Assembly (NCBI GenBank): GCA_007618135.1 | Contig: PHFX01000015.1 | Location: 1-41,101, forward strand | DNA from: Candidatus Brocadia sp. WS118 | Lineage (GTDB): Bacteria > Planctomycetota > Brocadiia > Brocadiales > Brocadiaceae | Direction of reading: 5' to 3' | Length of the DNA: 41,101 bases | Shown here: positions 2,426-30,925 of the stretch, piece after piece | Numbering within the stretch: the first letter of the stretch is position 1 | How the letters are laid out: the number at the start of each line of letters is the position of its first letter | The notes under the pieces: generated by a model | Database searches by the model: none | The model's input: the letters and a program-made list of their open reading frames with translations, nothing else | What the model was told of the DNA's origin: nothing | Program-made: the position numbers and the translations under genes

Positions 2426-2465
2426 TAAAAGGTTGGTGAAAGCTGCCTAAAAGGTACTAAAAGGT
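2426..2465. repeat. three TAAAAGGT direct repeats between primase-like gene and recombinase pair
   Basis: TAAAAGGT occurs at 2426-2433, 2448-2455 and 2458-2465, spaced 22 and 10 bp start to start. The 184-bp gap holds no other gene. Short direct repeats next to a tyrosine recombinase operon can be arm-type binding sites or a repressor site; which applies here is not known. Confidence 0.5.
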
Positions 2466-2480
2466 TCTCGCTGGCAACCG

Positions 2481-4808
2481 TCATACTTCCAGTTCTTTGA
2501 TGTCTTTTAACCCGAGCATAAACTTTTCTCCATTCTTCCCCTGCCCTTCATAAGCAAGCCGATATCGGTACGGCAAACCATTGCGGCCCGATTTGACGAC
2601 TAAATACTCAAATTCTACAAGTTCCTTTAAGTGAATATGTAGCCTCGTATTGCTCCAACCGGTGAAATGACGAATATCCCAGCGGCTAAACGTTATTGTT
2701 GTCCTATTAAGCGTATCATCCCGACGATCCAGTATCATGACTTCGAGCATTTCATCAAGCAGGATAAGAAGGTCACGAGTGGGACGTGAAAGCTCGTCAA
2801 GAGATCGGCCCAATACTTCATGAGCCAAAGTGTTCGTGATCTTAATATCTTCAATATCGACATCAATATAGGGGAGCGCGGTGCCGTTTTTTTCCTCGTA
2901 CCGCAATGGTTTAACCATTTGTCGTAAGAACGCCACCGTCTTAATGAGATTGAGATATTTCGGTTGATCCCTTCGGCTCTGCAACCGATCGTCACCATAT
3001 GTTAACTTGTCGGCAAACGGATTCTTAACTGCGACATTTCTTAACAACCGTTGAAAATTACGGTGTCGTTTAATCGTCGAATCACTCTGTATTCTCTGAG
3101 CCGGGGCATCGGAGAGATGCTTCTGCCGCTGGGATAAAAGAATTCTTTTGGTTTGTTCCTTACTTTCATCAATGGACGTCACAAAAAATCGAGACTTCGT
3201 TTCCGGGTCAATTTGGGGATTGGTTGTAGTCAGGAATACCGCCGTAGGTCCCTCAACCTTATTTTCCATAGTAGTGAGTTTTCCCGTAGTCAAATCCTTG
3301 ATCGTGGATTCACTGATCAACTCGCCAGCACTGATGAGATTTCTTATTGCATAGGTCGCCTGCACAACGCCGTCACCCTCTTCCAGTGCCAGAACTTTAT
3401 GCTTGAGTGAGAGTGTATCTTTGTAGAATAACGCCTTGCCTGAAAGGGTAGTTAACTTTTGTAAATCTTCTTCTGGACAAAATGCGCATACCGCATCCTG
3501 GACGGCTGTCTTTCCCGCACCTGAACTCGACATGAATAATAAAGACAGTGGTGCATCTCTTTTGCGACTCGTCATCACCAAATACCCTAAAAGTTTATTC
3601 GGCTCCTCTCCGACAAGTCCACATACTTCAAAATCCTTTATGATCTGTTGAATCAAGTCAGTCCGCTTACCAAAACTCTCTGCCTCATCTACCTCCTTGC
3701 TTGACATGACGTTGGTTACGCATGATTCAATCTTTTGTTCAGTCTGTTGACGTTTTTCGCAATCAATCATTAGCCGTGTAATGTCGCTTTCAATTACTTC
3801 CGGAGTCTGGGCGAACACCCGGCAGATGTCCTGGACTAAAGCCTTTCGCGCCTTTGCGGAATAGAAGTCAAGTGTGTCTACGTGCAATTTTCCTGCATGC
3901 TCGATACGAACTGTGGCTCTTAGTTTTCTGGCTCCCTTATCAAGCCCCATAACTTGATATTTTCGTAATCCATAGCAGATTAAAAAACTATCTTTGAATT
4001 CCCGAACAGGCGAATCTTCTTGATCAACCGGTGTAGGACTGGCCGATTCCTTAGTTGCCTCATTGCTTCCCTCAATAAACATGGCGAGCTTGTCAACACC
4101 ATGTTCCATCATGTAGCTGTTTAGACTGTGATGTTGCGGCAATTCCCTGAATTCACGACTAATGGAGTATTCACTCATTTTTTCAGCAAATTCTTCCTTA
4201 TTAACTTGAGCTCCCTTCTCGTCAGATGTGCGACCATTGGAAATAGAAATGATATGCTGAACGCCGTAGTCCTTCATTAGTCTAAAGTTATCCTCGCTGA
4301 ACACATGGCCTCCAAAGACCGCCACAACATTACAAAAACCGGCCATTGCAATACTCAAACCATCAATTATGGACGTAACCAGCACAATCTTCGGGTACGT
4401 TTTTATGATACCAATATTCCATAGCCCATTAAACGATGCCGACAATAAGACACGCACCCCTTCGTCTGCACCAAGTCCATAAAGCGTACTTATATTGCCA
4501 TCTAGGTCGTAAACTGGAACTATCACGCAATTGGCAAAGTATTCACTTCCATTCTCTTTTAAAATACCTACATGCTTTAGTTCATCAATAAGTGCACCCT
4601 TTCGTGGAAGAATTTCATTTAGCCGTCCGTTTGAAAATCCCAGGTTATACTGCCCCCATACTCCGGCGTCATTAATCCCTCTCTTTTCCAGATAGTCTCG
4701 TCCTTCCATCCCATCTGCAAAATTCTTCGTATACACCGAGACAACCTTATCCAGTAATTGCCGGACTCTCTCCTTTGTAAGCTTTGTCGCCTGTTCTTTT
4801 GTTTTCAT
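2481..4808 (-). CDS. primase-like TOPRIM/AAA ATPase protein with degenerate TOPRIM site
   Basis: 775 aa from the ATG at 4808, which has AAGGGGAAATTG before it (a TTG three bases earlier also opens the frame). The N-terminal part resembles DnaG-type cores: YLEKRGI near 39-45, FANCVIVPVYDLDG near 91-104, and a TOPRIM-like segment near 139-205. There is no CHC2 zinc finger. The conserved TOPRIM glutamate (EGYxD in DnaG) reads VTSIID and the acidic DxD reads SISN, so primer synthesis by this domain is doubtful. The C-terminal half has a Walker A motif SSSGAGKT (427-434) and Walker B-like KVLALEEGDG (471-480), followed by a probable winged-helix region. A helicase or replication-initiator role for the mobile element is a reasonable inference. 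It sits upstream of two recombinases on the same strand. Confidence 0.75.
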   Translation of the reverse strand: MKTKEQATKLTKERVRQLLDKVVSVYTKNFADGMEGRDYLEKRGINDAGVWGQYNLGFSNGRLNEILPRKGALIDELKHVGILKENGSEYFANCVIVPVYDLDGNISTLYGLGADEGVRVLLSASFNGLWNIGIIKTYPKIVLVTSIIDGLSIAMAGFCNVVAVFGGHVFSEDNFRLMKDYGVQHIISISNGRTSDEKGAQVNKEEFAEKMSEYSISREFRELPQHHSLNSYMMEHGVDKLAMFIEGSNEATKESASPTPVDQEDSPVREFKDSFLICYGLRKYQVMGLDKGARKLRATVRIEHAGKLHVDTLDFYSAKARKALVQDICRVFAQTPEVIESDITRLMIDCEKRQQTEQKIESCVTNVMSSKEVDEAESFGKRTDLIQQIIKDFEVCGLVGEEPNKLLGYLVMTSRKRDAPLSLLFMSSSGAGKTAVQDAVCAFCPEEDLQKLTTLSGKALFYKDTLSLKHKVLALEEGDGVVQATYAIRNLISAGELISESTIKDLTTGKLTTMENKVEGPTAVFLTTTNPQIDPETKSRFFVTSIDESKEQTKRILLSQRQKHLSDAPAQRIQSDSTIKRHRNFQRLLRNVAVKNPFADKLTYGDDRLQSRRDQPKYLNLIKTVAFLRQMVKPLRYEEKNGTALPYIDVDIEDIKITNTLAHEVLGRSLDELSRPTRDLLILLDEMLEVMILDRRDDTLNRTTITFSRWDIRHFTGWSNTRLHIHLKELVEFEYLVVKSGRNGLPYRYRLAYEGQGKNGEKFMLGLKDIKELEV

Positions 4809-4836
4809 CAATTTCCCCTTGTAAATTATACATTAT

Positions 4837-4873
4837 TGATATATATTTTATATCATATTATTATATTGTCAAT
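4837..4873. promoter_or_regulatory. AT-rich divergent control region with two inverted repeats
   Basis: The 144 bp between the divergent primase-like gene and the XRE gene are very AT-rich. They contain TGATATA-N5-TATATCA (4837-4855) and the centred palindrome ATATTG-T-CAATAT (4863-4875). This is the expected place and form for operators of the adjacent XRE regulator, which would control both directions. Binding is inferred, not shown. Confidence 0.45.
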
Positions 4874-4952
4874 ATCTAATTTTAGTTCAGTTGTGTGTAC
4901 TTATATTCTTTTCCATATGCTAAAATATTCAAAATCAAAAAATGGAACCTGT

Positions 4953-5279
4953 ATGAAACTTGGAAAAAATATACGTCTGATACGCCTCAAAGCCGGTCTA
5001 TCACAAATTGAATTTGCCAGACTGCTTGAGACATCCCAACCGAACATTCATCGCTGGGAAAAAGACATTGTTTCTCCATCCATCAAATCCATTATTAAAA
5101 TGGCCAAACTCTTAAACGTTCCCACAGACAGCATATTGTTATCACCCGATGAACGGAATACTCTTAATTCCTCCAATACCTTTCTTTCCAAACGCCTCAA
5201 ATCTATCGAAAAACTCACCTACAAAGATCAAGAAACATTGTTCCAAATTATCGACGCTTTCCTCAAATCCAAAAAATAG
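4953..5279 (+). CDS. XRE-family HTH transcriptional regulator
   Basis: 108 aa from the ATG at 4953. Residues 3-58 form a Cro/CI-type helix-turn-helix: IRLIRLKAGLSQIEFARLL, then TSQPNIHRWEKDIVSPSI, with the usual spacing. The C-terminal 45 residues (about 64-108) are helical and basic, probably for dimerisation. Longer frames exist upstream (in-frame ATG at 4917), but the MKLGKNIR start fits the family. The gene is divergent from the primase-like/recombinase operon across an AT-rich gap with two inverted repeats. It is therefore probably the repressor that keeps the excision and replication genes silent, as in many integrative elements. No peptidase or cleavage motif is visible, so induction would be by another route. 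Confidence 0.9.
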   Translation: MKLGKNIRLIRLKAGLSQIEFARLLETSQPNIHRWEKDIVSPSIKSIIKMAKLLNVPTDSILLSPDERNTLNSSNTFLSKRLKSIEKLTYKDQETLFQIIDAFLKSKK

Positions 5280-5290
5280 TCGCGCCCTAC

Positions 5291-5325
5291 ACTGGTAGTT
5301 ACGATAGTATTATCAAAACACTACC
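5291..5325. terminator. possible bidirectional terminator between convergent genes
   Basis: GGTAGT and ACTACC form a stem enclosing a smaller GATA/TATC hairpin between the XRE gene (plus) and the zinc-ribbon membrane gene (minus). There is no strong T-run, so a terminator role rests mainly on position. Confidence 0.3.
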
Positions 5326-5369
5326 CCGCCCCTTTATAACTTGTTAATTTTCATTACTATAGAGATTAT

Positions 5370-5786
5370 TTAATCAAATCCTATCCCCCGACTTATTCTT
5401 CTTATTTGAGTCCACAGATACTTAAAAATGCTTCTAGGTATTTTCCTCATATGTGGAGGCATAAAGAGAAATCCCACCGCCCATAACCCGTATATAATCA
5501 AAAAAGAAGCTAGAATCCCTAAATTGCTCATAAGTCCTGTTATCAAGAGAAAAACCAACGCGAGCATGAAAAACCATAGAATGAATTTGAGAAAATTTAT
5601 CCACAAGGGAAACGGTCCTGAAGTTTCCGATAATTCAGTACTAACACAATTCCTGCATGTTAGTGCCTCGAGAGGATTAGCCTGCCGACAATGGCGGCAA
5701 ATCCTGACCCAAAAAGTCCGGCCGCAATATTGGCAGTAAATAGGTTTCCCCGGATTGATTCTTTTGCAATAGGCGCAGTATTTCAT
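5370..5786 (-). CDS. double zinc-ribbon membrane protein
   Basis: 138 aa from the ATG at 5786, chosen because GGAG lies 9 bases before it and it begins 2 bases after the stop of the preceding gene; a longer frame to 5837 would overlap that gene. Four CxxC knuckles in residues 4-48 (CAYC, CQYC, CRHC, CRNC) make two treble-clef zinc ribbons. Two hydrophobic helices follow at about 65-85 and 90-110, then a basic tail. Last gene of the Ub-like/mobilisation operon. Zinc-ribbon membrane proteins often act as adaptors; here it could recruit the coupling ATPase or a modified substrate to the membrane, which is inference. Its coding sequence contains a perfect DnaA-box match (TTATCCACA, 5597-5605), probably by chance. 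Confidence 0.75.
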   Translation of the reverse strand: MKYCAYCKRINPGKPIYCQYCGRTFWVRICRHCRQANPLEALTCRNCVSTELSETSGPFPLWINFLKFILWFFMLALVFLLITGLMSNLGILASFLIIYGLWAVGFLFMPPHMRKIPRSIFKYLWTQIRRISRGIGFD

Positions 5787-5788
5787 TT

Positions 5789-6613
5789 CTAAGTCTCCAG
5801 AAGTGAGACTAAAGATTCTTGATGTGGCCGCTGCCAAATTCTGCTCAAGATTTTCTCAGAGGTAATGTCGTCCTGAACGGCCAGCCAAAACATCTTATTG
5901 GTCTTTCTTTCAATCAATTTTCTTATGTTCTTTAACCTTGCTTGGCTCTGGCATACAAACAGAACCTTAAAGAACTGAAATCCAAATTGCTTTTGATAAT
6001 AACCGTCAATGCCATATTCCAGATAGTTGTCCACCTTTTCCTCAATACGCTTATTGGTTTCTGTGGATCGGTCTACTTCTAAGAAAAGGCTGTAAACTTT
6101 GTTACGGTAGCTATAGGTAAGGTAGAAATCAGGAAAGAATTCTCTTTCGTCAAGACGCAATGGAATTTCCTTCTCGGTTTTCCACGACTTGGGGACTATC
6201 TCAGGTTTATTCTTTGAGGCAAGATAAAAAGCCAGCCTGAATTCATTAATTAAAAGAAAGTGTGGCAGGGAGGCATTCTTTATTTCCAATAGCTGTTTTC
6301 TTCTTTGTTTTATCTTCAACAGATCTATGCCAGATTGCTCCGAAATCAGCTCTACCCCTTTGGGCCCTGGGAAATAAAGAATCTTCGCCCTGCCTTGATA
6401 TACGGGAATAAACCGTCGAGAGAGATAGCCATTATCAAAAAGCTTTCGCAACCGTATACCTGCCCTTACCTGACAACCAAAATCCAAAAGGAGCCGGATT
6501 TGATCTTGGGTTAAAAAGTGGTATTTATAGCAGAAGGTGACAATCTTTTTATCCCTTTCCTGCAAAACCATAGGGTTCTTTGCTCTCTCAAAATGATTTC
6601 TTCTACCACTCAT
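5789..6613 (-). CDS. replication-relaxation family protein (relaxase-like), copy 1
   Basis: 274 aa. An N-terminal winged helix (about 20-70: QERDKKIVTFCYKYHFLTQDQ, then RKLFDNGYL) is followed by the family core with FFPDFYL (159-165) and the signature FLEVDRSTE (177-185). This matches the replication-relaxation family (Pfam Replic_Relax), found on plasmids and integrative elements beside coupling ATPases. The fold is nuclease-like with acidic metal ligands. Start ATG at 6613 with AGGAGGGTCAAG before it; it overlaps the end of the coupling ATPase gene by 11 bp. A second, diverged copy of this two-gene module lies at 17.3-19.6 kb. The biochemical nicking role is predicted, not proven, for this family. 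Confidence 0.85.
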   Translation of the reverse strand: MSGRRNHFERAKNPMVLQERDKKIVTFCYKYHFLTQDQIRLLLDFGCQVRAGIRLRKLFDNGYLSRRFIPVYQGRAKILYFPGPKGVELISEQSGIDLLKIKQRRKQLLEIKNASLPHFLLINEFRLAFYLASKNKPEIVPKSWKTEKEIPLRLDEREFFPDFYLTYSYRNKVYSLFLEVDRSTETNKRIEEKVDNYLEYGIDGYYQKQFGFQFFKVLFVCQSQARLKNIRKLIERKTNKMFWLAVQDDITSEKILSRIWQRPHQESLVSLLET

Positions 6614-8081
6614 CTTGACCCTCCAATGGATTTTTCGACTTTAATGGATAGCTTTCCCCCATATTCTTTGATTGCAACATAAGGTGTCTTTTCTCAATTT
6701 CATTTCTTACCTCCATCAACGGCCTACTAGAGAAAGAAAGGCAAGATTCTTTGAATTCGTCAACGACTTCTTTGGAAACGTATGGCGACGATGGAAGTTG
6801 AATTTTAACCAGCCTGACTGGCTTGCCCCTTACTTTCACATACGCTTCTCCCGTCCTTAACTTGATCAGGTTTTCAGAAAGTATTTTTTTATCTTCAGGG
6901 TTTAACTCCGGCGCTAATGTCAGCGCGTCTCGATACCCTAACCGGAAGCAATACAGTGTGTTGATATTGCCCAAGATTGCATTTAATAGATCGCTGTTCA
7001 GTTGGCCCAAATTTTGATGGGCCATGGTTAGATTCACACGATATTTGCGGCATTCCGAGAGTAAGACCTCAATGTCAGCGCCTTCCCGAGTTGAGAGAAA
7101 ATTCTGGAATTCGTCCAAGACAACGTGAAATGGTCTACGCCTCGGAAAAGGAATGTCGGCCCTTGAAAGTGCAGCAAGCTGAAGCTTTGAGAGAAATAGT
7201 CCACCCAGCAATGATGCGTTACTTTTTAATTTTCCTTTGGCGATATTAAGAATCACCCAGCGTCCTTCATCCATTGCCTTTCTAAAATCAAGAGTGCTTC
7301 GTGCTTGACCGAGCATATACCGGATGTTTTCATCTGTCAGAAACTCTGTAATCTTATTTAAAACCGGTTCTCGATACTGAACTTCCGATCCTTTACTTAA
7401 TTTGTTGTACCGATCAAGCCAATATGATTTGATTTCCTGATTGGTAAGATTGTGTACCATTGAATTTCTTGCTTCTTTGTTTGTCAGAAGAAAAGGCATT
7501 TCTAATAGAGTGAGTTTGTTCTCACTTAGCGTAACCAGACAGGTTCTGAATAGCTCTTCCATTCTTGGGCCGAAATCCGGCCACTTGGACTTGAAAACAT
7601 TCATCATTTCCAAAGCGCACGAATACGCTGAACTCCCCGTTGACGCCTCAAGTGGATTGAATCCTACTATTCGGTCTGGATTAGACGGTTCAACTAAAAT
7701 TAAACGCCTAGCAATCTCCTCTTTTTGTTTACCTTGCTTCGTCTGCCAGAGGGACGCGAGAAATCTTGTTAGTTTTTCCGACAAGTCTCCGTGGGCATCC
7801 GCAAGACAGAAACCTCGGTTTTGCATGATCTCATCCTGGATGATGGATTCGATAAGTGTGGTTTTTCCTGATCCGGTTCCTCCACAGCAATAACTGTTGA
7901 CCATCCTTTCTTCCATCGAAAGAAAAAGCGGTTCTTCATCCAGACTGTTATATAGTTTCGTGGTATTGCCTAGATAAAATGCGTTGGGTGAAATTTTATC
8001 CTGTCGGTTCAACGAAAAAATGTATTTCTGTCCAGCCTCGAGTATTTCAATAGCCAACCTTTCCAAAGAAGTGATCAGCAT
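6603..8081 (-). CDS. VirD4/TraG-like type IV coupling ATPase, copy 1
   Basis: 492 aa from the ATG at 8081, which has a perfect AGGAGG 7 bases upstream; a longer frame (to 8117) lacks this support. Walker A GGTGSGKT at 67-74, then DAHGDL (95-100), a family feature. Walker B VLDEFQ is at 321-326, followed by the typical SECRKYRVNLTMAHQNLGQL segment. No N-terminal membrane helices, so this is the soluble class of coupling proteins that pump DNA or substrate to a transfer channel. It overlaps the E1-like gene by 7 bp (ATGCTGA) and the relaxation gene by 11 bp, so the Ub-like enzymes and the transfer ATPase are translationally coupled. Compared with copy 2 it has about 30 extra N-terminal residues. 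Confidence 0.92.
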   Translation of the reverse strand: MLITSLERLAIEILEAGQKYIFSLNRQDKISPNAFYLGNTTKLYNSLDEEPLFLSMEERMVNSYCCGGTGSGKTTLIESIIQDEIMQNRGFCLADAHGDLSEKLTRFLASLWQTKQGKQKEEIARRLILVEPSNPDRIVGFNPLEASTGSSAYSCALEMMNVFKSKWPDFGPRMEELFRTCLVTLSENKLTLLEMPFLLTNKEARNSMVHNLTNQEIKSYWLDRYNKLSKGSEVQYREPVLNKITEFLTDENIRYMLGQARSTLDFRKAMDEGRWVILNIAKGKLKSNASLLGGLFLSKLQLAALSRADIPFPRRRPFHVVLDEFQNFLSTREGADIEVLLSECRKYRVNLTMAHQNLGQLNSDLLNAILGNINTLYCFRLGYRDALTLAPELNPEDKKILSENLIKLRTGEAYVKVRGKPVRLVKIQLPSSPYVSKEVVDEFKESCLSFSSRPLMEVRNEIEKRHLMLQSKNMGESYPLKSKNPLEGQDEW

Positions 8082-8908
8082 TTTAAAGCCTCCTGATTTT
8101 CCCCACAGATCAAACACCCTTCTCTTTTTTTGATGTTCGTAGTGCCATCGGGAATGCTACCATCCAGAAAAATGACTCGATAATTCCACGCCCTGTTTCT
8201 TGGCATCATGAGCGTGTCGATGGAGTAAAGAACCGGGCCAGCCACGGTTTTGAGAACGTCTTTGACGGCCGGGGTATTTGGACAGGGATATCGCAGAATT
8301 CCTTTTTGTATCTCTTCAACCACCGAAGGATACAGACAACTGAAGCAAGGGCTGTTTTCTTTCGATTCCTGAACAAAAACGTAACCTGAGTTTCCATCTG
8401 CACTGACCGCGGTGAAGATGACTGGTATCTTTGCCGCGAAAAAATATGCAGAGGCGCGGACCCGGCAGGGGTTGTTGTCCACGCCGACTACTACGACTGA
8501 ACAAGCCATATTTAAATTTAGTGCCTCTGCTTCTTCGAAACTGTACGGGAAACCAAAAATTTCTGATTTTCCAAAGCCGAACCGCGAGAGATTTTGTGCG
8601 AGGGATATGGCTTTATTCTCATAAAGGTTCTCTTTAAAGAAAAACTGCCGATTCAGGTTGGAGGGTTCTACCAGATCCGAGTCAAAAATTTTCAAGTGGC
8701 CAATTCCCTTTCTCACCAACCCCTCCCCGATCTCTCCTGCCAGACCTCCAGCGCCGATTAAAACAATCGTTGCGGAGGAGAGTTTTTCCTGATCAAACCC
8801 AGGTATTTGTGCCTGTCTATCAAAAACATTCTCTTTAAGTGGTTTGGTTCGAAAAACTTTAACGTTTGATTTCACCAAGCTTAAAAATTGTTTCATATTC
8901 TTTTGCAT
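8075..8908 (-). CDS. E1-like (ThiF/MoeB/UBA) activating enzyme
   Basis: 277 aa from the ATG at 8908 (GGAG, spacing 7); an upstream ATG at 8932 is less well placed. Rossmann-type ATP site GAGGLAG (52-58), D76/D78 in IFDSDLV, SNLNRQFF (83-90) with the adenylation Arg, and VGVDNNPCR (142-149). Paired cysteines CFSC (188-191) and CLIC (265-268) would hold the structural zinc of E1 enzymes. Cys209 in YPCPNTP sits where a catalytic thioester cysteine could lie. The enzyme should adenylate the C-terminus of the ubiquitin-like protein encoded three genes upstream and pass it to the E2-like protein. It overlaps the JAB gene by 50 bp and the coupling ATPase by 7 bp. ThiF for thiamine or MoeB for molybdopterin is unlikely: no such pathway genes are near and the JAB/E2/Ubl set is present. 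Confidence 0.88.
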   Translation of the reverse strand: MQKNMKQFLSLVKSNVKVFRTKPLKENVFDRQAQIPGFDQEKLSSATIVLIGAGGLAGEIGEGLVRKGIGHLKIFDSDLVEPSNLNRQFFFKENLYENKAISLAQNLSRFGFGKSEIFGFPYSFEEAEALNLNMACSVVVVGVDNNPCRVRASAYFFAAKIPVIFTAVSADGNSGYVFVQESKENSPCFSCLYPSVVEEIQKGILRYPCPNTPAVKDVLKTVAGPVLYSIDTLMMPRNRAWNYRVIFLDGSIPDGTTNIKKREGCLICGENQEALKC

Positions 8909-9502: not shown

Positions 9503-9955
9503 TTACCTCCTTTGAAGACTTTGGGACAGTAATCTTTCAACAGCCATTATCCCGCTGTCCAAATTGTTTGAATTAATTCCAAAATGAATATGAAAACGTC
9601 CGTTCCCGGTAGATGTAAAACAAGCTTTGTGTGCGCCGATGAGAACCTCAGTGGGAGGATTCAAGATATAAAACTTATATTCTTCGTTTGCTCTTTCTTC
9701 AATCTCTCCTTTAAATGCACCAAATCTGCACCTAAAATATCCTCGGTAAATACCAGCATTGTTCTTCCAACCCCGCTCCCTGTGGAAGGGTAACTTATTG
9801 GCTTTGACATCAATCGCACTGCTAGCTTTCTTATAAGTGCCTTTTGGAAATACTTTGGCTTCTTTGTCGATGCTGGGAGAACCAGTTCGGGTAAACCCCA
9901 AGCATGACAATATTGCGTAAACAATTATTTCACTAATACTGGTATTCTTATCCAT
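9503..9955 (-). CDS. E2/UBC-like conjugating protein (putative)
   Basis: 150 aa. The C-terminal half reads like prokaryotic E2 proteins: strand region YRGYFRCRFGAFKGEI (70-85), YKFYILNPP (93-101) in the place of the UBC YPxxPP element, then His109 and Cys112 (GAHKACFTSTGNG), then strand FHIHF (121-125) and a C-terminal helix. Cys112 would be the thioester cysteine. Two other cysteines (18 and 76) exist but lie outside this arrangement. Position between Ub-like and JAB/E1 genes supports the call as much as the motifs do. Pairwise similarity to eukaryotic E2 enzymes is not recognisable by eye; another role as an accessory protein is possible. ATG at 9955, preceded by AGGGGGAAAAGAGA. Confidence 0.6.
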   Translation of the reverse strand: MDKNTSISEIIVYAILSCLGFTRTGSPSIDKEAKVFPKGTYKKASSAIDVKANKLPFHRERGWKNNAGIYRGYFRCRFGAFKGEIEERANEEYKFYILNPPTEVLIGAHKACFTSTGNGRFHIHFGINSNNLDSGIMAVERLLSQSLQRR

Positions 9956-15613: not shown

Positions 15614-16477
15614 TCAGAAAACCCGCCTGTACGTTTCTTCCATTTCGGTTCTGCTGAGTTTTGTATAATCAGAAATCGTATTTGTTGTGCTATGACCCAC
15701 CATGAGTGCGATAACAGCATCCGGCACTCCCTTTTTGGCAAGCCTATGAATAAAGCCATGACGAAAAGAATGTGGACTTATTTTTTCTTCAATGCCTGCC
15801 CGTTGCACTACTGATTTGACCATCCTTTGAATGGAACGTGAGGTAAGTCTTCCCATACAATTGCCTCTCGATCCTACAAACAGCGCTTTTGTGTCCGAAC
15901 ACGTTTCTAGTTCGCTTCGAAGCGATAGAAATAATCTAAGGAATGCGTCCGTTTCTTCCCCCCAAAAAACTCGACGTCTCTTTGTGGTCTTTTCTGTCTT
16001 GATAACTGCCGACATCTGACCGCGAATATCTGTGATATCCAAGGAACACAGTTCGCCAACTCTCATCCCGGTGTCATGCAACAATCTGACGATGCAAAGA
16101 TTTTGGAGAGGCATCGGTACTCTCTGGTTTAATTCAACAAGTATTCTCTGATACTCTTCTTCTGTAATGGCATGATGCGAATTCGCAGAGGCTTTAGGAA
16201 CTCTTATGAAATATAGTGGTATCGATAAGCGGCCCTGTTCGTGAAAAAAGCGAAGGTAATTGCGGACGATAGTCATTCCGTACTGGACGTTTCTTGGTGC
16301 GTATCGCTGGTCTATTGTCCTAGAAAATTCGACTATATCCTCGAGTTTTAATTCCTCTGGAAATTTACTCACAAAGTTCTGAAATCGTTCAACCCAGATA
16401 CGATAAGATTTATGTGCCGACTTTCGATACGATTCTTTCCATTTTAAGTATTGCTCGACTGGATTAGAATTGATCAT
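15614..16477 (-). CDS. tyrosine recombinase/integrase (XerC/D-like), third in window
   Basis: 287 aa from the ATG at 16477, which has AGGAGGAGTCCA before it; the longer frame to 16585 is unsupported. SAM-like N-terminal domain about 5-85, catalytic domain about 103-285. Catalytic set: Arg139 (GMRVGE), a Lys in TEKTTK (163-166), His236 and Arg239 (HSFRH), His262 (VGHST) and Tyr271 (SDYTKL). Followed at its 3' side by a terminator and preceded by a highly structured non-coding region. It may serve the second mobilisation module (17.3-21.7 kb), either as integrase or as a resolvase that keeps the element monomeric. Confidence 0.95.
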   Translation of the reverse strand: MINSNPVEQYLKWKESYRKSAHKSYRIWVERFQNFVSKFPEELKLEDIVEFSRTIDQRYAPRNVQYGMTIVRNYLRFFHEQGRLSIPLYFIRVPKASANSHHAITEEEYQRILVELNQRVPMPLQNLCIVRLLHDTGMRVGELCSLDITDIRGQMSAVIKTEKTTKRRRVFWGEETDAFLRLFLSLRSELETCSDTKALFVGSRGNCMGRLTSRSIQRMVKSVVQRAGIEEKISPHSFRHGFIHRLAKKGVPDAVIALMVGHSTTNTISDYTKLSRTEMEETYRRVF

Positions 16478-16638
16478 TGGACTCCTCCTAGAAACATTTT
16501 GATTGGTTGAAACCCCATCAAGAACAAAATGTCCTGTTGTTGATTGCATAAATTTTTCAAATAAGGCTTGGTAATAGCACACCAACTCTCGGTATGAATA
16601 TCAGGCACTGCTGAATCATTCGAAAAGTTGATTCTGCA

Positions 16639-16925
16639 CCCGCCGTTAAAACAGCGGGAATCATTACCACCTTAGAACTTCGGTTTACCGGCCTCTTGAT
16701 CTTCGGTAGTGAAACAAAACCATCCATCCACCCTTGCTTTCGGTTTACCGGCCTTAGCAAAAGGTGGATGGTACTTAAGATTGTACCACTCCTTCTGCCT
16801 GTTTCCTCATCGGCAGTTGCCCTGTTATCCACAGGTTTATCTGAGAACAAACAAAAAGGCGGCGATGGTGCTGATCGCCGTACTACCGTCTCTTCGACTC
16901 TTGCCAAAGATTCGGACATGTCCGA
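16639..16925. repeat. hairpin array, left part of structured origin-like region
   Basis: Contents in order: CCCGCCGTT/AACAGCGGG hairpin (16639-16658); two direct copies of TTCGGTTTACCGGCCT about 60 bp apart (16679 and 16739); a large hairpin with CCATCCACC (16724-16732) and GGTGGATGG (16763-16771) plus TTGCT/AGCAA and an inner CGGT/ACCG; GGCGAT/ATCGCC (16861-16879); and the 14-bp palindrome TCGGACATGTCCGA (16912-16925). No credible gene lies here. The density of secondary structure is typical of oriT or of plasmid origins. Confidence 0.6.
16825..16833 (+). other. consensus DnaA box
   Basis: TTATCCACA, an exact match to the DnaA-box consensus, inside the structured non-coding region upstream of the second coupling ATPase gene. 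Supports an origin reading of this region. Confidence 0.45.
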
Positions 16926-17021
16926 TTAAGTATACAAAGACGCCTATAAACATAGTATGTAGAGACCATATTTTAAAACTTTCGGCAAACTACCTCTCTA
17001 CTGACTACTGGTTTACTGCCT

Positions 17022-17165
17022 CCCCGCGTGTCGGGCTCGCGCCCGACTTCTGATTCTTCCTGACGGCTACCCGGGTTTGTCTCTGCACTATCGTTTGAAC
17101 CTGCACCAAGAATCAGAAGTCGGCCGCTCGATTGAGCGTCGACACGCGGGGAAAGGTTCAAACGA
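17022..17165. other. nested perfect inverted repeats with pseudoknot, candidate oriT/origin
   Basis: Four exact complementary pairs lie within 144 bp. A: CCCCGCGTGTCG (17022-17033) with CGACACGCGGGG (17140-17151). B: CCGACTTCTGATTCTT (17043-17058) with AAGAATCAGAAGTCGG (17108-17123). C: TCGTTTGAACCT (17091-17102) with AGGTTCAAACGA (17154-17165). D: CGCTC-GATT-GAGCG (17125-17138). Pair A encloses B and D; one arm of C lies in the loop of B and the other outside A, so C makes a pseudoknot. A local GTCGGGC/GCCCGAC hairpin (17030-17047) competes with A and B. The downstream genes encode a coupling ATPase and a replication-relaxation protein, so a transfer or replication origin is the natural guess. 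Confidence 0.7.
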
Positions 17166-17346
17166 CGTTAACCGCTACTCGTTCACTACCTCTAAAGACA
17201 ATTGTATAATTTTCATAGGGTATAATTACCCCGGACTGATTTTGTACATTCCTCAAAGCCATCGGGCTTCAAAACCAGCTTCCACTATCCTTTCGGCTCT
17301 TTCTCACACGGCATGCTCAAAGGGACTGGAAGCTGACTTTGAAACC

Positions 17347-18627
17347 ATGAATAATGAAGTAATTCTCGGAAAACGCATATCGTGGGGTGATAACGAATCG
17401 CATTTCGGTATTGGACCGGAAGACAGCCGCAGACACATCTATATCGTTGGCAAAACAGGATCAGGTAAGACGACGCTTTTGCACAATCTTCTCATTCAGC
17501 ACATTGAGGCCGGTAACGGGATTGGCCTGATCGACCCGCACGGCGATTTGGCAAACGATCTTCTCGATTACATCCCCTCTTGGAGAACCCGCGATGTTGT
17601 CTACCTAAACTCCGCCGATTTGAATTATTTTGTAGGGATCAATCCTCTTTCGGGTGTTTCACCTGACCGGCGTCATCAGGCCGCATCGGGAATAGTCAGT
17701 TCATTCAAAAGCCTGTGGCGGGATTCATGGGGGCCTCGACTTGAATATATTCTGTACAATGCCGTAGCCGCCCTACTTGACTGTGAGAATACAACCATTC
17801 TGGGAATTCCCAGAATGCTCACAGATAGTTCATACCGGAAATGGGTGGTACAGCAGGTACGTGATCCGTTTGTCCAATCGTTCTGGGTCAATGAGTATGA
17901 ACGGTACGACCCGCGTTTCATGCGGGAAGCTATCGCTCCCATTCAGAACAAAATCGGCCAGTTCCTCACGGCTCCGGCAATACGAAATATTCTGGGCCAG
18001 GTGAAAAGCAAAATTGATTTTCGCTTTCTCATCGACAACCAGCGGATTTTCATAGCCAATCTCTCGAAGGGTGCGCTCGGTGAGGATAAAGCGAATCTTA
18101 TGGGGTCACTTCTGGTGACACAATTTCAACTTGCAGCCATGTCCCGCACGGACATTCCCGAAAGCGAACGCAGAGATTTCTTTCTGGTGATTGATGAATT
18201 CCAGTCGCTGACGACTGACAGTTTTGCCTCCATTCTTTCCGAGGCGCGTAAGTTCCGTATTTCAATTGTCATCAGTAATCAATTTCTCGATCAACTTCAG
18301 CTTCCCATTCGTCAGGCTATTCTCGCAAACGTCGGAACCATTGTTTCCTTCTGCATCGGAAACACCGATGCAGAAACGTTGGAAAAGGAATTTGGTCTCG
18401 CCTATTCAGCAGAGCAGTTCACGGATTTAAAGCGATATGAGATAATTGTTAAACTGCTTGAAGACGGAGCTCATCTTGAGCCATTTAGGGGAAAGACTCT
18501 TCCGAAAATGGGGACTCCTTCATTTCGTCGAGAGATTATCCTAGAGCAGTCGAGGCAGAGATACTCTTTGAAACGAGAAGTTATTGAGAAGAAAATTTTA
18601 AAATGGATGCGAAGCGCGTCCGCATAG
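17347..18627 (+). CDS. VirD4/TraG-like type IV coupling ATPase, copy 2
   Basis: 426 aa from the ATG at 17347; the frame is open back to 17077, but that part overlaps the inverted-repeat region and does not resemble the family. Walker A GKTGSGKT (35-42), LIDPHGDLANDLL (61-73), Walker B VIDEFQ (281-286) and the following SEARKFRISIVISNQ segment match copy 1 (6603-8081) along the whole length, although the two are strongly diverged. As in copy 1 there are no membrane helices and the next gene is a replication-relaxation protein. Probable role: DNA or nucleoprotein motor in mobilisation. Unlike copy 1 it is not linked to Ub-like genes. Confidence 0.92.
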   Translation: MNNEVILGKRISWGDNESHFGIGPEDSRRHIYIVGKTGSGKTTLLHNLLIQHIEAGNGIGLIDPHGDLANDLLDYIPSWRTRDVVYLNSADLNYFVGINPLSGVSPDRRHQAASGIVSSFKSLWRDSWGPRLEYILYNAVAALLDCENTTILGIPRMLTDSSYRKWVVQQVRDPFVQSFWVNEYERYDPRFMREAIAPIQNKIGQFLTAPAIRNILGQVKSKIDFRFLIDNQRIFIANLSKGALGEDKANLMGSLLVTQFQLAAMSRTDIPESERRDFFLVIDEFQSLTTDSFASILSEARKFRISIVISNQFLDQLQLPIRQAILANVGTIVSFCIGNTDAETLEKEFGLAYSAEQFTDLKRYEIIVKLLEDGAHLEPFRGKTLPKMGTPSFRREIILEQSRQRYSLKREVIEKKILKWMRSASA

Positions 18628-18675
18628 TTTCAATGCAAACGTCTTCTGAACGGGGCGGCAGACGGCACATTACGA

Positions 18676-19611
18676 ATGTCATCCACGCGAACCCCGCGGT
18701 TTAAACGTCCGAGTAACATAAACACTATCCGTATTACAGAACGTGATTTAAACATTATTCATCACGTCTTTCGGTATCGTCTATTAAATTCCAAACAGAT
18801 TACGATCCTCACAGAAGGCAGTCATCAAAACATCTTAAGGCGCCTCAAACTGTTATATAACAACCGCTATCTTGATCGTCCAATAAGCCAGCTTGAATAC
18901 TACCGTTCCGGTGGCTCACACCCTATCGTGTATGCCCTCGGCAATCGTGGCGCTGATTTGATTCAGGAAAGATTCGGCATTCCTCGGAAAGAAATTGACT
19001 GGACGGCAAAAAACCGTTCTGTTAAACGGCTCTTTATTCAGCATACCTTGGCGGTTTCTGAATTTCTTGTGAAAGTTGAGGCTGATTGTAAGAGAAGTGG
19101 GAACATGAGATTCATTGATAAAGAAGAATCACTGAAAGATCTTTCAAGTCATACATTGAATCAGAGGCAATTCAAATGGGATGTGAAAGCTTCTGCTCAC
19201 GGAGAGAACATACGAATCGGAATCATACCCGACTATGTTTTCGGTCTTCAGTCGTTAAAGGAAAACACCGAAACGATCTATTACTTTCTTGAAGTAGATC
19301 GGGGAACGATGCCCGTGATGAGAAATAGCCTGAAGCAGACTTCATTCTATAGGAAGCTCCTTGCCTACTATGAAACGTGGAGACAGGGACTTCACTCGTC
19401 TCTTTTTAGTTTGAAAAGACTTCGGGTCCTGATTGTTACACACAGTAAAGAAAGGCAGAATCATCTGATCGCCGCAAACAAAATACTTAATGATGGCGTA
19501 GGTTCCGGTATTTTCCTCTTTGCAAACGTACCTGAGATTTATTCTTGCAAAGACATTTTAAAACCATCCTTTGTGGATGGTCATGGGAGCGATGGTATTT
19601 CAATTAGATAA
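18676..19611 (+). CDS. replication-relaxation family protein (relaxase-like), copy 2
   Basis: 311 aa. N-terminal winged helix (about 20-70: TERDLNIIHHVFRYRLLNSKQ, then RLKLLYNNRYLDRP), then the core with IIPDYVFG (183-190) and the signature FLEVDRGT (204-211). Same order of motifs as copy 1 at 5789-6613. It lies 48 bp after the coupling ATPase. The Asp and Glu of PDY/F and LEVDR are the likely metal ligands of a nuclease-like fold. The pair with the adjacent structured DNA suggests that this protein recognises that DNA. Confidence 0.85.
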   Translation: MSSTRTPRFKRPSNINTIRITERDLNIIHHVFRYRLLNSKQITILTEGSHQNILRRLKLLYNNRYLDRPISQLEYYRSGGSHPIVYALGNRGADLIQERFGIPRKEIDWTAKNRSVKRLFIQHTLAVSEFLVKVEADCKRSGNMRFIDKEESLKDLSSHTLNQRQFKWDVKASAHGENIRIGIIPDYVFGLQSLKENTETIYYFLEVDRGTMPVMRNSLKQTSFYRKLLAYYETWRQGLHSSLFSLKRLRVLIVTHSKERQNHLIAANKILNDGVGSGIFLFANVPEIYSCKDILKPSFVDGHGSDGISIR

Positions 19612-19620
19612 CAGGCACGA

Positions 19621-19854
19621 TCAATTCTCTTCGAGAACCGCTACCCTTTTTTCCAAATTTTTGACATCATCCTTTTTAGCCATTTTATCCGCTATATCAT
19701 CGAGGCGCGCTTGGATGCCACTGAGCCTTGAGTTAATTCCAGTGATATCCTTCTTGATAGTAGTAACGTCATCCTTAGTTGCTGTTTGGTCGAATCCGTT
19801 TTTCACCATGACAGCAAGTTCCTCCAGAGTTATTTTTTTATCTTCAGATTGCAT
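19621..19854 (-). CDS. small coiled-coil protein
   Basis: 77 aa, convergent with the relaxation gene (9-bp gap). Residues 25-77 show heptad pattern (VTTIKKDITGINSRLSGIQ, ARLDDIADKM, VKNLEKRVAVLEE). Looks like the many short coiled-coil proteins of mobile elements with no known role. ATG at 19854 with weak AGGT. May be an oligomerisation partner or a small regulator. Confidence 0.6.
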   Translation of the reverse strand: MQSEDKKITLEELAVMVKNGFDQTATKDDVTTIKKDITGINSRLSGIQARLDDIADKMAKKDDVKNLEKRVAVLEEN

Positions 19855-19996: not shown

Positions 19997-20992
19997 ATGT
20001 CTGAATCGGATTGCGGATTCGTAGATTTTAAAACAATCAAAAAGTCGATCTCAATGCTTCAGGTTCTTGAGCATTATGGACTCGCGCAAACGCTTAAGGG
20101 AAACGGGGACTCGTTAAGCGGCCCCTGCCCTCTTCACGGAGGACAGACGAAAGGACAATTCAAAGTCAGTACTTCCAAAAACTGTTGGCACTGTTTCGGT
20201 CAATGCAAATCCGGAGGAAACGTCCTGGACTTCGTGAGTCTCAAAGAGAATATCGGAATCCGCGAAGCGGCAATCTACCTTATGGAACGGATTGGTCTCT
20301 CAACGGTCCCCGTATCAACAATACAATCAGAAGGAAAAGAAGTAACAAGCCCACAAAGGCAAAAGGATGATAAGGAACCGGTCACAACGGCAGAAGAATC
20401 GAAGATAAATAAACCGCTTGGATTTGTACTTAAGTATCTCGATCCGGACCATCCGTATCTTACTGACCAAGGACTTTCCAAAGAAACCGTCCTTGCATTT
20501 GGTCTTGGTTATTGCAAGCGAGGGATACTAGCGGAGAGAATAGCTATCCCGATCCAAAACAAGGGTGGAGAACTTGTGGCATATATTGGCCGCTTTCCGG
20601 GAACACCACCCGAGGGAAAGGAAAAATACAAATTTCCAGAAGGTTTTAAGAAATCACTCGAACTGTTCAATGGTCATCGTGCGATCAAGGAATCATCAAC
20701 GGAACCGTTAGTTCTGGTACAAAGCGTCTTTGACGGCATGCGCATCTGGCAAGCCGGGTATCGTCGCACCGTAGCTCTTATGGGAAACTCCCTCTCAGAA
20801 GAACAGGCTACGCTTGTTAAGGAGATAGTTTCCTCTCAAGGACGAGTTGTCTTGCTCCTCCGTGAGGATGTGACGACAACCGCGAATCAAAGTATACTTC
20901 TACGACTTAGTTCTTCCTGCTTTACCAAACTCATCACGTTTCAGGACAGTATCACTGATCCTGAGATATTAATACAAGCTATTCGCAGTTAG
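19997..20992 (+). CDS. CHC2 zinc-finger primase-like protein with degenerate TOPRIM
   Basis: 331 aa; ATG at 19997 with AAAGGAGG. The N-terminus is a CHC2 zinc finger as in DnaG: Cys44-x2-His47 (CPLHGG) and Cys63-x2-Cys66 (CWHC), then SGGNVLDFV. A linker (about 105-140) leads to a DnaG-like core: GFGLGYCKRG, IAIPIQNKGGELVAYIGR. The TOPRIM-like part reads LVLVQSVFDGMRIW (238-251) where DnaG has VVVVEGYxD, so Glu is Gln; the DxD site reads LLLRED (286-291). The same two sites are also lost in the protein at 2481-4808. The protein may bind origin DNA or prime with a partner and may not itself synthesise primers. Confidence 0.8.
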   Translation: MSESDCGFVDFKTIKKSISMLQVLEHYGLAQTLKGNGDSLSGPCPLHGGQTKGQFKVSTSKNCWHCFGQCKSGGNVLDFVSLKENIGIREAAIYLMERIGLSTVPVSTIQSEGKEVTSPQRQKDDKEPVTTAEESKINKPLGFVLKYLDPDHPYLTDQGLSKETVLAFGLGYCKRGILAERIAIPIQNKGGELVAYIGRFPGTPPEGKEKYKFPEGFKKSLELFNGHRAIKESSTEPLVLVQSVFDGMRIWQAGYRRTVALMGNSLSEEQATLVKEIVSSQGRVVLLLREDVTTTANQSILLRLSSSCFTKLITFQDSITDPEILIQAIRS

Positions 20993-25944: not shown

Positions 25945-27468
25945 CTAGATATAATGTTTAAATGACAAGACCTCTGATTTAATGGATTTACCCGCTGTCA
26001 ATACTTCGCCAATAGAGTCTGCGAATCTCAAGGTTACAGGTAATCCGTCAGCAAATTTACAAGAATTATAATTTAACTTTGTTAGGGCCAGTATATCTCT
26101 ACAAACAATTTTTAGATCGGATATGCCCCTGGTTATTTCGACACTTAGTGGATTCGGCGTCTCGGCCCCCATCTGAGTTTGAAGGCGTGGAATAAAACCT
26201 TTTGTCCAAAGAAAAGCATTTCTTTCACTAATCGTCAAAGTAGCACCTCGTGGTACACAGTAAGTAAAATCGCGGTATAACTTAAATCCACTATCGTTTC
26301 GGATTCGAATACCAACGATTTGACTTTTGTCGGTTGCGGCTTCCTGAAAGCCCTCCCATTCATCATCGTCAAAATAAGTTCGGGCATGTATAAATACTTC
26401 TTCCGGATATTTGTTGTTAGGGGACTTGAGTTTAAATGCTTCAAGCGACTTGCTCAATAAATCAAATGCGTCTTCCTTTGATAAATGAAACTCTTTGGTA
26501 ATAGGATTATACCAAGGTCCGATATTTCCTCTAAACACCATACCATCGCCAGAATCCAAAAACATCTGCGCGGCACAGCAAGCGTTCTTATTCATCATGT
26601 CTGTTTCTGATTTCTTATAGACCAGCCCCAAATAACAAACACCATCCCTCACGTCACCCAAGCGCCAAGGCAAGCCCCCTGATTTGTAATATAAAGCGGT
26701 TGCTATGTTCCACGCTTTGTCCGCGTCAAATTTCCTTTCGTAATCGATTTTCTTATCGGAATTCCAAATGTGATCGTATGCGATTTTGCTTTCACGGATG
26801 ATTTGAGTTACAACTCTATGATTCAACAACTTAGCTTTTAGTTGATTGTGAAAATCAATTTCAAATTGGTAAGCTTCTTTTAGCTGTTTCATGTCATCGA
26901 AAAGAAATTCTTGAGTAGAATATCGGTCTTTCTTACTTAGTGAATACCTGACATTGTCCTCAGAGGCGGGTATGTGGGAATTGGGCCGTCCAAAAGTATA
27001 TATTTCTTCAGGAATTGCGACGAACCAGACGAGAACCGGGATCTCCTCGCTATTGTTGTAATTTATTATCCCATCCACAAACAAGTTGGTAAGGTTGTGC
27101 ACCCTCTGATGACCGTTTGTGTATTTCAGATATTTATCTATATCCGATTTCGGAACATCGATTTCGACAAAATTGTCGAAATTAATATAAATGCCGTATG
27201 CGGCCTCTAATCCCGGGAAATACGGCCGAGCTATGTCTTTTTCACTACTCCATACCGGTTTATGCAGTAACTCGAGATATTTTCTTAGATAACCTCTCTG
27301 CGTTTTTGGGCCGATGACTCCGACACTAATTGGCCCTTGAATTTTGTCTTTTGTAAACGGCCCAAACAGAGTAATCCCATCTCTAGGATCGCTCATTTTC
27401 TGTGAGTACGCAAAGGTCAAGGATGGTTCTTTAGTGTAAAACAATTCTGTTTTTTCTTTAAGTTTCAT
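25945..27468 (-). CDS. short prokaryotic Argonaute (MID-PIWI, SPARTA type)
   Basis: 507 aa from the ATG at 27468, overlapping TIR-APAZ by 11 bp (a GTG at 27501 opens a slightly longer frame). Length and layout fit short pAgos: MID domain about 120-260, PIWI about 270-500 with YYKSGGLPWRLG, CYLGLVYKK, MVFRGNIGPW and EVFIHARTYFDDDEW. The PIWI tetrad is not seen in full, as in the short pAgos, which do not slice. The partner encoded upstream is TIR-APAZ, so this is the guide-binding half of a SPARTA system: guide RNA plus target DNA binding triggers NAD(P) hydrolysis by the TIR partner and cell death. Confidence 0.88.
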   Translation of the reverse strand: MKLKEKTELFYTKEPSLTFAYSQKMSDPRDGITLFGPFTKDKIQGPISVGVIGPKTQRGYLRKYLELLHKPVWSSEKDIARPYFPGLEAAYGIYINFDNFVEIDVPKSDIDKYLKYTNGHQRVHNLTNLFVDGIINYNNSEEIPVLVWFVAIPEEIYTFGRPNSHIPASEDNVRYSLSKKDRYSTQEFLFDDMKQLKEAYQFEIDFHNQLKAKLLNHRVVTQIIRESKIAYDHIWNSDKKIDYERKFDADKAWNIATALYYKSGGLPWRLGDVRDGVCYLGLVYKKSETDMMNKNACCAAQMFLDSGDGMVFRGNIGPWYNPITKEFHLSKEDAFDLLSKSLEAFKLKSPNNKYPEEVFIHARTYFDDDEWEGFQEAATDKSQIVGIRIRNDSGFKLYRDFTYCVPRGATLTISERNAFLWTKGFIPRLQTQMGAETPNPLSVEITRGISDLKIVCRDILALTKLNYNSCKFADGLPVTLRFADSIGEVLTAGKSIKSEVLSFKHYI

Positions 27469-28921
27469 TTGTTTGGTCCAAATTTTCCATTTCCTCGGCA
27501 CTTTTCACATTCAGGATATTTTGTCTAAGCTTATTTGTTGGTTCCATGTAACCAAAATCCGACCAGTACGTTTTTGTATATGGTTCGAATTCTAAGGTAA
27601 ATTCCTGGTTCAATTTGATTGAAATTTTTCCGTCCTCGCTTTTTAAACCGTGCAAATAGGCAATCAATAAATCCCGCCATGCCGCATTATAAATATTTTT
27701 CCCTTTTTGTCGTCTATGGGTATGAATTTTACCCTTATCATTCCAGAGCTGAAAACCATCATTAGTGAAAACGATATGGCTTTTCAAACTGAAGCAAACT
27801 TTCGGATAGAGGATGGTTTGATTCGATACGGCAAAATGCCATTTACCTAAGTTCAAATAGCGCCCTATTAGATTCTTAGTTTTTTCTCTCCCCTCTTTTC
27901 TATATAGGTATTCAAACTTTACTTTTGAGGAAGGTAGTGTTTTTGGCGTATAGTAATAGGCTAGTTTCTTATTGGCTAATGTATCCCAGAAAAGTCCTCG
28001 GTACTTCATTAGTTTGTGAAATACACTACTCAATAGCCTTTTGAGATGATTGGCGGCATCTTTGGAGGTCGGAAAATCTTTTGATTCAAAGCCGTCTAAA
28101 ATATCAGACACCTTGAGTTCAAAGATTGCTTTAGGTTTTACGTTAAACTTTACTCCATCTTTTTCTAATTCCAATGAAAAATCGGAATCGAAAGTGGCCA
28201 GTACATTTGAAATTTTTCCGACAGGAAATGTATTTTCACGGTAGTAAAGTTCTTGAGCTTCTGAGTCGGTATTGAACTGATATAAGTGCAGTTTTTCGGG
28301 GAGGTTGGGAATTTGCCACCAGTTAGTGTAGTATAGTTCCTTCTTTGAAGTAATTTCACTCTCTGTGATATAGGATTTGGCATACCAGTCGTGAAATGAG
28401 GCGTCAAATTGCCCTTCGGGCATTTTCTCAACACCGTCTTTCTCCAACTTTCTTACCAGTTGACGTAAGCCTATTGGCCAACTATCCGCAAAATGGATAT
28501 GATTTAGCCTGTTGGCACCAATAAATAGATCATATACCGAGGCGTCAAGATTTAAAAGAATAATGTGATCCTTCAGGTCGTAACTTTTGGCAATGGATTC
28601 GGCAAGACAAAATTCTTTGTCAATACCATCCTTTAGTTGACCGGGGTTATTAGGTGTACAAATGTTTTTTGAATAGACTAGGAGATATTTGATGGCATCG
28701 TTTCTTAGAACGTGATCGATTTCCTGCCAAGTTTTCTCTCCACCAATGAGATGATTCTTGTCGATCCAAACTTTATATCCTAAAAGCTGTAATCTTGAAG
28801 CAAGCCAAATGGCAAAATTGTTGTCTTCAGGTGTAGCATGGCCAATAACAAGAACGTCCCGTAACTTTATTTGCAGTTCAGTGGTCTGGAGGTCACTAAT
28901 TGGAATGATTTGATTGTTCAT
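27458..28921 (-). CDS. TIR-APAZ effector (SPARTA type)
   Basis: 487 aa. TIR domain about 20-150: VLVIGHATPEDNNFAIWLASRL, YKVWIDKNHLIGGEKTWQEI, KYLLVYSKN, then DKEFCLAESIA with Glu103/Glu108 as possible catalytic glutamate. The C-terminal two-thirds (about 190-470) is the APAZ region that docks on the short Argonaute (ATFDSDFSLELEKDGVKFNV, then KCVFSLKSHIVF-like strands). Expected activity: NAD(P)ase after target recognition, abortive defence against invading plasmids. It overlaps the pAgo gene, as in known SPARTA operons. Confidence 0.88.
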   Translation of the reverse strand: MNNQIIPISDLQTTELQIKLRDVLVIGHATPEDNNFAIWLASRLQLLGYKVWIDKNHLIGGEKTWQEIDHVLRNDAIKYLLVYSKNICTPNNPGQLKDGIDKEFCLAESIAKSYDLKDHIILLNLDASVYDLFIGANRLNHIHFADSWPIGLRQLVRKLEKDGVEKMPEGQFDASFHDWYAKSYITESEITSKKELYYTNWWQIPNLPEKLHLYQFNTDSEAQELYYRENTFPVGKISNVLATFDSDFSLELEKDGVKFNVKPKAIFELKVSDILDGFESKDFPTSKDAANHLKRLLSSVFHKLMKYRGLFWDTLANKKLAYYYTPKTLPSSKVKFEYLYRKEGREKTKNLIGRYLNLGKWHFAVSNQTILYPKVCFSLKSHIVFTNDGFQLWNDKGKIHTHRRQKGKNIYNAAWRDLLIAYLHGLKSEDGKISIKLNQEFTLEFEPYTKTYWSDFGYMEPTNKLRQNILNVKSAEEMENLDQTNET

Positions 28922-29773: not shown

Positions 29774-30211
29774 TCAGGTTAAATGTATGATGTTGATATT
29801 GCCTAAATGATTGGCAAGATAATTTGCCAAGAGCGACCGATGGCAATGCTTGGGTAAGTGTTCACTACACAAAAAGCAGGCGTCTTCTAGGAGTTTCGAG
29901 TCAGATGTGTTCAATACTTTTCTATTCTCTAGTAGTGCCAAATACTTCTTTGAGTATTCCTCCCAACTCATTAGTTTATTCTTAAATCCTTTGAGAATGT
30001 CCTCAGTCGGTGCAAATTCGGGCATATAGATATATTCAATGCCGCTAATTTCAGATAGAAAATATTTAAGATCATCTTTTTTTGCAAATCCCGCCAATTG
30101 TGACTTATTGTTTAACCTGGTATCTATTAATCGTTTCACTTTGTTACGCATCAACAATTCGAAAAATTGCTGAGCTGATTTACCGGTAAAGCCAATTGTG
30201 TATAAATTCAT
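29774..30211 (-). CDS. DUF488 family protein (second copy)
   Basis: 145 aa. Family motifs: YTIGFTGKSAQQFFELL (start), LIDTR (27-33 region), and CSEHLPKHCHRSLLANYL near the C-terminus, where the C(S)E..HCHR cluster is the DUF488 hallmark. ATG overlaps the upstream stop by 4 bp (ATGA). Two DUF488 copies and the OB protein form a tight three-gene operon. Biochemistry of DUF488 is not established to my knowledge; nucleic-acid or metal-dependent chemistry is suspected from the Cys/His cluster. Confidence 0.85.
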   Translation of the reverse strand: MNLYTIGFTGKSAQQFFELLMRNKVKRLIDTRLNNKSQLAGFAKKDDLKYFLSEISGIEYIYMPEFAPTEDILKGFKNKLMSWEEYSKKYLALLENRKVLNTSDSKLLEDACFLCSEHLPKHCHRSLLANYLANHLGNINIIHLT

Positions 30212-30846: not shown

Positions 30847-30925
30847 TACCATTTTCCTTTTGACTTTCGACAATATTATAACCGAAACGTCTTGAAAACC
30901 AAACCATTTCTATATGATTCCATTT

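Follow-up and report, generated by a model that had tools for sequence, protein, structure and literature searches.

A covarying DNA hairpin beside a coupling ATPase and a Replic_Relax relaxase as a probable MOBC transfer origin

The stretch of DNA analysed here (the window) is an entire 41.1-kb contig (G000:C223) of a 5.0-Mb genome. Its structured DNA sits in a divergent 0.87-kb gap, with the gene of a tyrosine recombinase (integrase) on one side (15614-16477, minus strand; ATG start, AGGAGG ribosome site) and a three-gene plus-strand set on the other. On that plus-strand side are encoded a coupling-type ATPase of 426 amino acids (17347-18627; TrwB/VirD4-like; TrwB_AAD_bind, DUF87; E = 7e-11), which by its own sequence is without the N-terminal membrane domain, a Replic_Relax (PF13814) relaxase of 311 amino acids (18676-19611; E = 1.8e-21; 77.5 bits against a cut-off of 25.3) and a DnaG-type primase (19997-20992), syntenic in several relatives, with a small frame between the relaxase and primase genes. 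This arrangement, a coupling ATPase and Replic_Relax pair downstream and a recombinase opposite, had been recognised in a first-pass annotation of the letters and is confirmed. The element also codes for a family B polymerase. The window genes scanned included no type IV channel gene, so that the element appears to be mobilizable and not self-transmissible.

The relaxase places the locus in a known family. One study equates PF13814 with MOBC and describes integrative mobilizable elements (IMEs) that pair a PF13814 relaxase with a VirD4-type coupling protein (PMC5357655); since oriTs of this family are known from CloDF13 and pAD1, the earlier premise that no oriT has been characterised for Replic_Relax proteins was wrong. 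MOBC enzymes are related to PD-(D/E)XK nucleases and include pAD1 TraX and CloDF13 MobC (PMC12857230). In the window relaxase, residues P185, D186, E206, D208 and K227 (PD...ExD...K) are invariant in seven sequences. Its AlphaFold model has a pLDDT of 75, in which Foldseek recognised a winged helix, while the nuclease part gave a weak BstEII match and none convincing in the PDB. Of the features of a MOBC module, a Replic_Relax/MOBC relaxase and an adjacent VirD4-type coupling protein are found in the window.

Several other features of the window deserve mention. A second coupling-ATPase/Replic_Relax pair (6603-8117 and 5789-6613, minus strand) is 34% and 29% identical to the first; its module (438-8117, minus) also holds a primase-like protein and two overlapping tyrosine recombinases, and is without the hairpin described below. 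Likely defence cargo includes TIR-domain proteins, a trypsin-like protein and a DUF488 protein (27458-28921, 36010-37353, 33257-34093, 30208-30873). An RHS-repeat protein is encoded at the 3' end (38953-41100) and a piece of this region recurs at the 5' end (1-350; 31-50 / 40085-40104), and the island may lie within an RHS gene or between such genes. Perfect DnaA boxes occur on the plus strand at 5597, 16825 and 19897, one of them beside the second relaxase gene and another beside the gene for the primase, and a perfect 22-bp palindrome, CATTCTGGGAATTCCCAGAATG, lies within the ATPase gene (17796-17817).

The central feature of the gap, which we call structure 1 (17021-17152, plus strand) and propose as a MOBC oriT hairpin, is a nested fold: stem A (17021-17033/17140-17152), with perfect 13-bp arms, encloses stem B (17039-17058/17108-17127), in which 19 of 20 positions are paired around a perfect 16-bp core (17043-17058/17108-17123), and a 49-nt loop carries the motif CGGCTAYCCGGG. 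Seeds with 11-bp arms within 150 nt number 23 in the whole window, against a mean of 2.6 and a maximum of 6 in simulated windows, and three of their 11 clusters fall in the structured region. The single-stranded DNA fold of 16600-17200 lies 6.6-8 standard deviations below shuffles (z = -6.6 on the plus and -7.95 on the minus strand), and RNA folding gives z of -5.7 to -7.3. A structured region with perfect inverted repeats, as proposed in the first pass, is therefore confirmed, with the first arms 13 rather than 12 bp long; so is a local hairpin, GTCGGGC-TCGC-GCCCGAC (17031-17048), which competes with stems A and B and is conserved in sequence. What was taken for a 60-bp direct repeat proves to be 16 bp long: TTCGGTTTACCGGCCT occurs at 16679 and again at 16739, at a spacing of 60 bp. 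Both copies (16679-16694, 16739-16754) contain the palindrome CGGTTTACCG and adjoin the recombinase gene; might they be operators or recombinase arm sites?

Homologues of the locus were reached with an alignment of ATPase relatives as the query, scans of genomes and viral contigs with a single ATPase or relaxase protein having returned nothing. Three loci were retrieved, with ATPases 60% (L055, Limisphaerales), 57% (L056, Verrucomicrobiales) and 55% (L135, an IMG/VR contig) identical to that of the window. Compared with the window's, the L135 hairpin has one additional, inserted pair and compensatory changes on both sides of six others. A covariance model built from these two sequences (R1) found four more copies: one in L056 (3058-3205), one in G611, a genome of L056's phylum, and one each on second contigs of the L056 and L055 genomes. 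E-values, resting on a short calibration, are rough. The resulting six-locus set (window, G611, G415:C166, G415:C306, G416:C121 and L135) includes two loci from one genome.

In all six loci structure 1 lies upstream of a coupling ATPase on the same strand, at distances of 191, 363, 367, 1044, 1157 and 3792 bp. A Replic_Relax gene and then a primase gene follow the ATPase in four (window, G611, G415:C166, G416:C121), while tblastn found no homologue of either in the available DNA of L135 and G415:C306. Double compensatory changes affect 13 of 36 pairs (20 cells), a level reached by none of 500 shuffles, and 94% of cells are paired across the six loci; shuffles reach 85%, and slid controls no more than 49%. 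The conservation of pairing, which the first pass had named as a check, is in this way borne out. Covariation favours stem B over the local hairpin at 17031-17048; a compensatory change at pair 26/142 in G416 suits the long stem and not the hairpin. A third pair, C (17091-17102, TCGTTTGAACCT; 17154-17165, AGGTTCAAACGA), with perfect 12-bp arms, does cross other pairs, and the pseudoknot read into it is geometrically possible, but its complementarity is at chance in the five homologues. As pair C is specific to the window, the suggested switch between two exclusive folds falls with it.

R1 matched the window alone among 392 genomes of the window's phylum and two of 388 genomes in the phylum of G415; a second model (R2) found no further copies in the loci of about 100 relatives, among them Patescibacteria and the second ATPase/relaxase pair of the window, and a DNA-level plasmid search with 16400-19700 gave no match. 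Genome scans with a third model (R3) are weakly powered, few candidates having been scored per genome. Patescibacteria are rich in coupling-ATPase relatives of 45-50% identity (L059-L134), and a home-made Replic_Relax profile found almost none within their fetched flanks. Two further lines were set aside: of three matches in viral contigs to the loop string CTGNCGGCTACCCGGGTT, two are chance occurrences within coding genes, and a coding reading of the region fails, as covariation dominates and no frame stays free of stops, at consistent lengths, through every homologue.

Upstream of structure 1 lies a palindrome, P0 (16944-16962, plus strand; consensus ACAWACAtGGTATGT), a candidate protein-binding or nicking part. 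It is found 67-71 bp upstream of the hairpin in six of six loci, and this constant spacing indicates a unit of about 0.2 kb, window 16944-17155. The interval first singled out, 16639-17165, contains this palindrome, then unnamed, but misses a second structured element, structure 2 (17265-17346, plus strand; model core 17273-17338), an RNA-like leader that runs up to the ATPase start codon. A TATAAT at 17221-17226 (plus strand) is a candidate -10 box for the coupling-ATPase operon, and a perfect TATAAT stands upstream of structure 2 in five of eight loci. Structure 2 is kept in six further loci, with double changes in 11 of 24 pairs; its model found the seventh member blind, in G133. Characteristic features are a bulged A, an adjoining conserved U-G wobble and a CCAA loop, and the seven members correspond to no Rfam family.

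Wobble pairs distinguish the two structures. G-T cells make up 3 of 201 standard pairs (1.5%) in structure 1, against 14 G-U of 133 (10.5%) in structure 2 (Fisher p = 4e-4, a value which is only indicative because helix cells are not independent observations). A-C cells are as rare in structure 1 (four), so that there is little wobble on either strand. No consistent promoter or terminator was found around structure 1, and Rfam 15 produced nothing above its gathering score in the window and nothing convincing in L055, L056 or L135. The near-absence of G-T pairs and the want of a promoter or terminator lead us to read structure 1 as working as DNA. Judged by these sequence patterns, the simplest reading is that structure 1 acts as DNA and structure 2 is the leader RNA of the ATPase gene; structure 2 is probably an RNA separate from structure 1, and possibly a regulatory leader of the transfer operon. 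The contrast between the two offers a case for telling DNA from RNA constraint by wobble pairs.

In L056, a CBASS-type cassette (SMODS CD-NTase; STING plus CAP12-type TIR effector; L056:3361-6051) lies between structure 1 and the ATPase, which argues that the hairpin is independent of the ATPase promoter. A type III restriction gene is found near structure 1 in G611 and a DNA methylase near it in G416; with the CBASS-like cassette, these suggest that the elements are probably defence-carrying islands.

An independent test was provided by CloDF13, the prototype MOBC plasmid, which a survey of oriT regions also assigns to that family (PMC7755788). R2, trained on the six loci alone, matched CloDF13 (NC_002119) at 9647-9784 on the minus strand with 29.4 bits, compared with 14.2 bits for the next-best site (leaving aside the opposite strand of the same place) and a full-model background maximum of 10.4 bits over the 41-kb window. 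The coupling-ATPase frame follows 0.39 kb downstream of the match, on the same strand. Among 34 comparable pairs, 28 are kept (15 identical, 13 doubly changed) and six are broken, with none changed one-sidedly and no G-T. Motifs common to this match and structure 1 are GGCTCACGCCCGAC, CCGCTCG and GGCTC-CGCCCGAC (GGCTCxCGCCCGAC). A literature search for the CloDF13 nic sequence yielded none. We take it to be GGGTG/GTCGGG, a string which occurs once in CloDF13, at 9752, inside the hairpin and within the complement of arm B; its GTCGGGC half is kept in five of six loci (alignment A9). The position of this presumed nic is a lead only.

Covariation, the fixed orientation and gene context, and the CloDF13 match together make a MOBC oriT the best explanation of the structured DNA. 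In our assessment, the window carries at 16944-17155 what is probably the oriT of an IME whose relaxase is of the MOBC (Replic_Relax) type. The earlier idea of an oriT-type site, present as folded DNA and tied to the ATPase and Replic_Relax proteins, gains support from the covariation and from CloDF13. Under such a scheme, the relaxase, probably with the coupling ATPase, would bind a site made of P0 and the long hairpin and nick one strand within or beside the latter, and the single strand would be passed on to a mating channel that another element provides. The hairpin, extruded as single-stranded DNA or as a cruciform, would position the nick, and the extruded form may later serve re-closing or priming by the element's own primase.

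The most serious competitor is a single-strand initiation site. Hairpins are frequent among known ssi and sso sites, and structure 1 could be one of these: once transfer or rolling-circle replication has left a folded single strand, the DnaG-type primase of the element, or else host RNA polymerase, would recognise it and start the complementary strand. Such sites initiate complementary-strand synthesis on single-stranded DNA (PMC5714925). The large size of the hairpin, its imperfect pairing, its conserved loop motif (TTCCT-CGGCTAYCCGGG) and its fixed orientation would suit that role, as would a primase syntenic in four of six loci. However, CloDF13 keeps the stems and not the loop motif, the primase was found neither in the L135 and G415:C306 pieces nor, as a significant match, in CloDF13, and an oriT is expected at exactly this place. 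We consider a site of this kind unlikely as the explanation, though the role could coexist with an oriT. That the helices covary and the RNA fold is far below shuffles would also agree with a structured RNA, either a small RNA in mobilization, as sgm-sRNA is for SGI1, or part of the ATPase mRNA leader; mobilization of SGI1 does require an sRNA adjoining oriT (PMC9299015). Yet G-U pairs are nearly lacking on either strand, there is neither a consistent promoter or terminator nor an Rfam family, and in L056 the complete CBASS-type cassette separates hairpin from ATPase, all of which renders an RNA distinctly improbable.

The two remaining readings fare worse. The first pass had noted a consensus DnaA box and spoken of an origin. 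The perfect box exists (TTATCCACA, 16825-16833, plus strand), the window has three where 0.34 are expected, and a primase and a family B polymerase are encoded; but only this single box is near the structure, its position is not kept in relatives, and CloDF13 carries a ColRNAI-type replicon. A vegetative origin bound by DnaA is thus very improbable, and that part of the earlier reading is unsupported. It is hardly credible, finally, that structure 1 is the recombination site (attP) of the neighbouring tyrosine recombinase or holds its arm-type sites. The recombinase gene is 0.54 kb from structure 1 in the window, and a 48% identical relative is 0.39 kb away in G611, but in the remaining four of the six loci no relative was detected next to structure 1, and the G133 relative has a serine recombinase and the ATPase leader with no match to structure 1. 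This pattern argues against attP, as does a site orientation that always follows the ATPase.

The oriT reading bears on how such sites might be found. OriTs are hard to predict from sequence and MOBC is little studied; the hairpin offers a testable recognition element; supported by covariation, it ties uncultured, defence-gene-carrying islands of Verrucomicrobiota type to CloDF13. A search model could, moreover, call mobilizable elements that are now typed as non-mobilizable, such as CloDF13 in PLSDB. More tentatively, MOBC oriTs may all belong to one ancient family of DNA hairpins, which are recognised by their shape: the relaxase would cut an extruded nested hairpin and tolerate any change of letters that leaves the pairing intact. 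Were this true, one site would have been kept from Verrucomicrobiota-type islands to enterobacterial CloDF13, and oriTs generally seen as diverse sequences (PMC6414798) could, within this family, be found by covariance model.

Comparison with known systems yields likenesses and differences. Typical oriT repeats are much smaller than structure 1, which counts against the oriT reading. The mobilizable island SGI1 resembles the window in having a GC-rich oriT with inverted repeats near its transfer genes (PMC6414798), but its main repeat is 7 bp, as opposed to a nested hairpin of more than 30 pairs, its relaxase is the tyrosine-recombinase-like MpsA, and its sgm-sRNA is essential. Enterococcal pAD1, with TraX and oriT2, resembles the window in having a coupling protein and a relaxase of the MOBC family, whose active site is of PD-(D/E)XK type (PMC12857230). 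In pAD1, five direct repeats at 70-120 bp from nic are bound by TraX, which counts against a likeness here, as 16600-17350 contains no such array; described for pAD1, the array is not taken as defining. Streptococcal Rel_PF13814/MobC IMEs likewise combine a PF13814 relaxase with a VirD4-type coupling protein and carry a serine integrase where the window has a tyrosine recombinase; the passages on them report no oriT structure (PMC5357655). CloDF13 differs from the window element, an IME, in being a plasmid, in showing no P0 palindrome at the corresponding spot and no CGGCTAYCC motif in its loop, in that no dedicated primase was found, and in its MobC frames, which in the record used, where the mob frames are broken, have no PF13814 match and no detectable sequence similarity. 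Its mobilization region (mobB coupling protein, mobC relaxase and oriT) presents the same plan as the window, a nested two-stem hairpin followed on the same strand by a coupling-ATPase frame.
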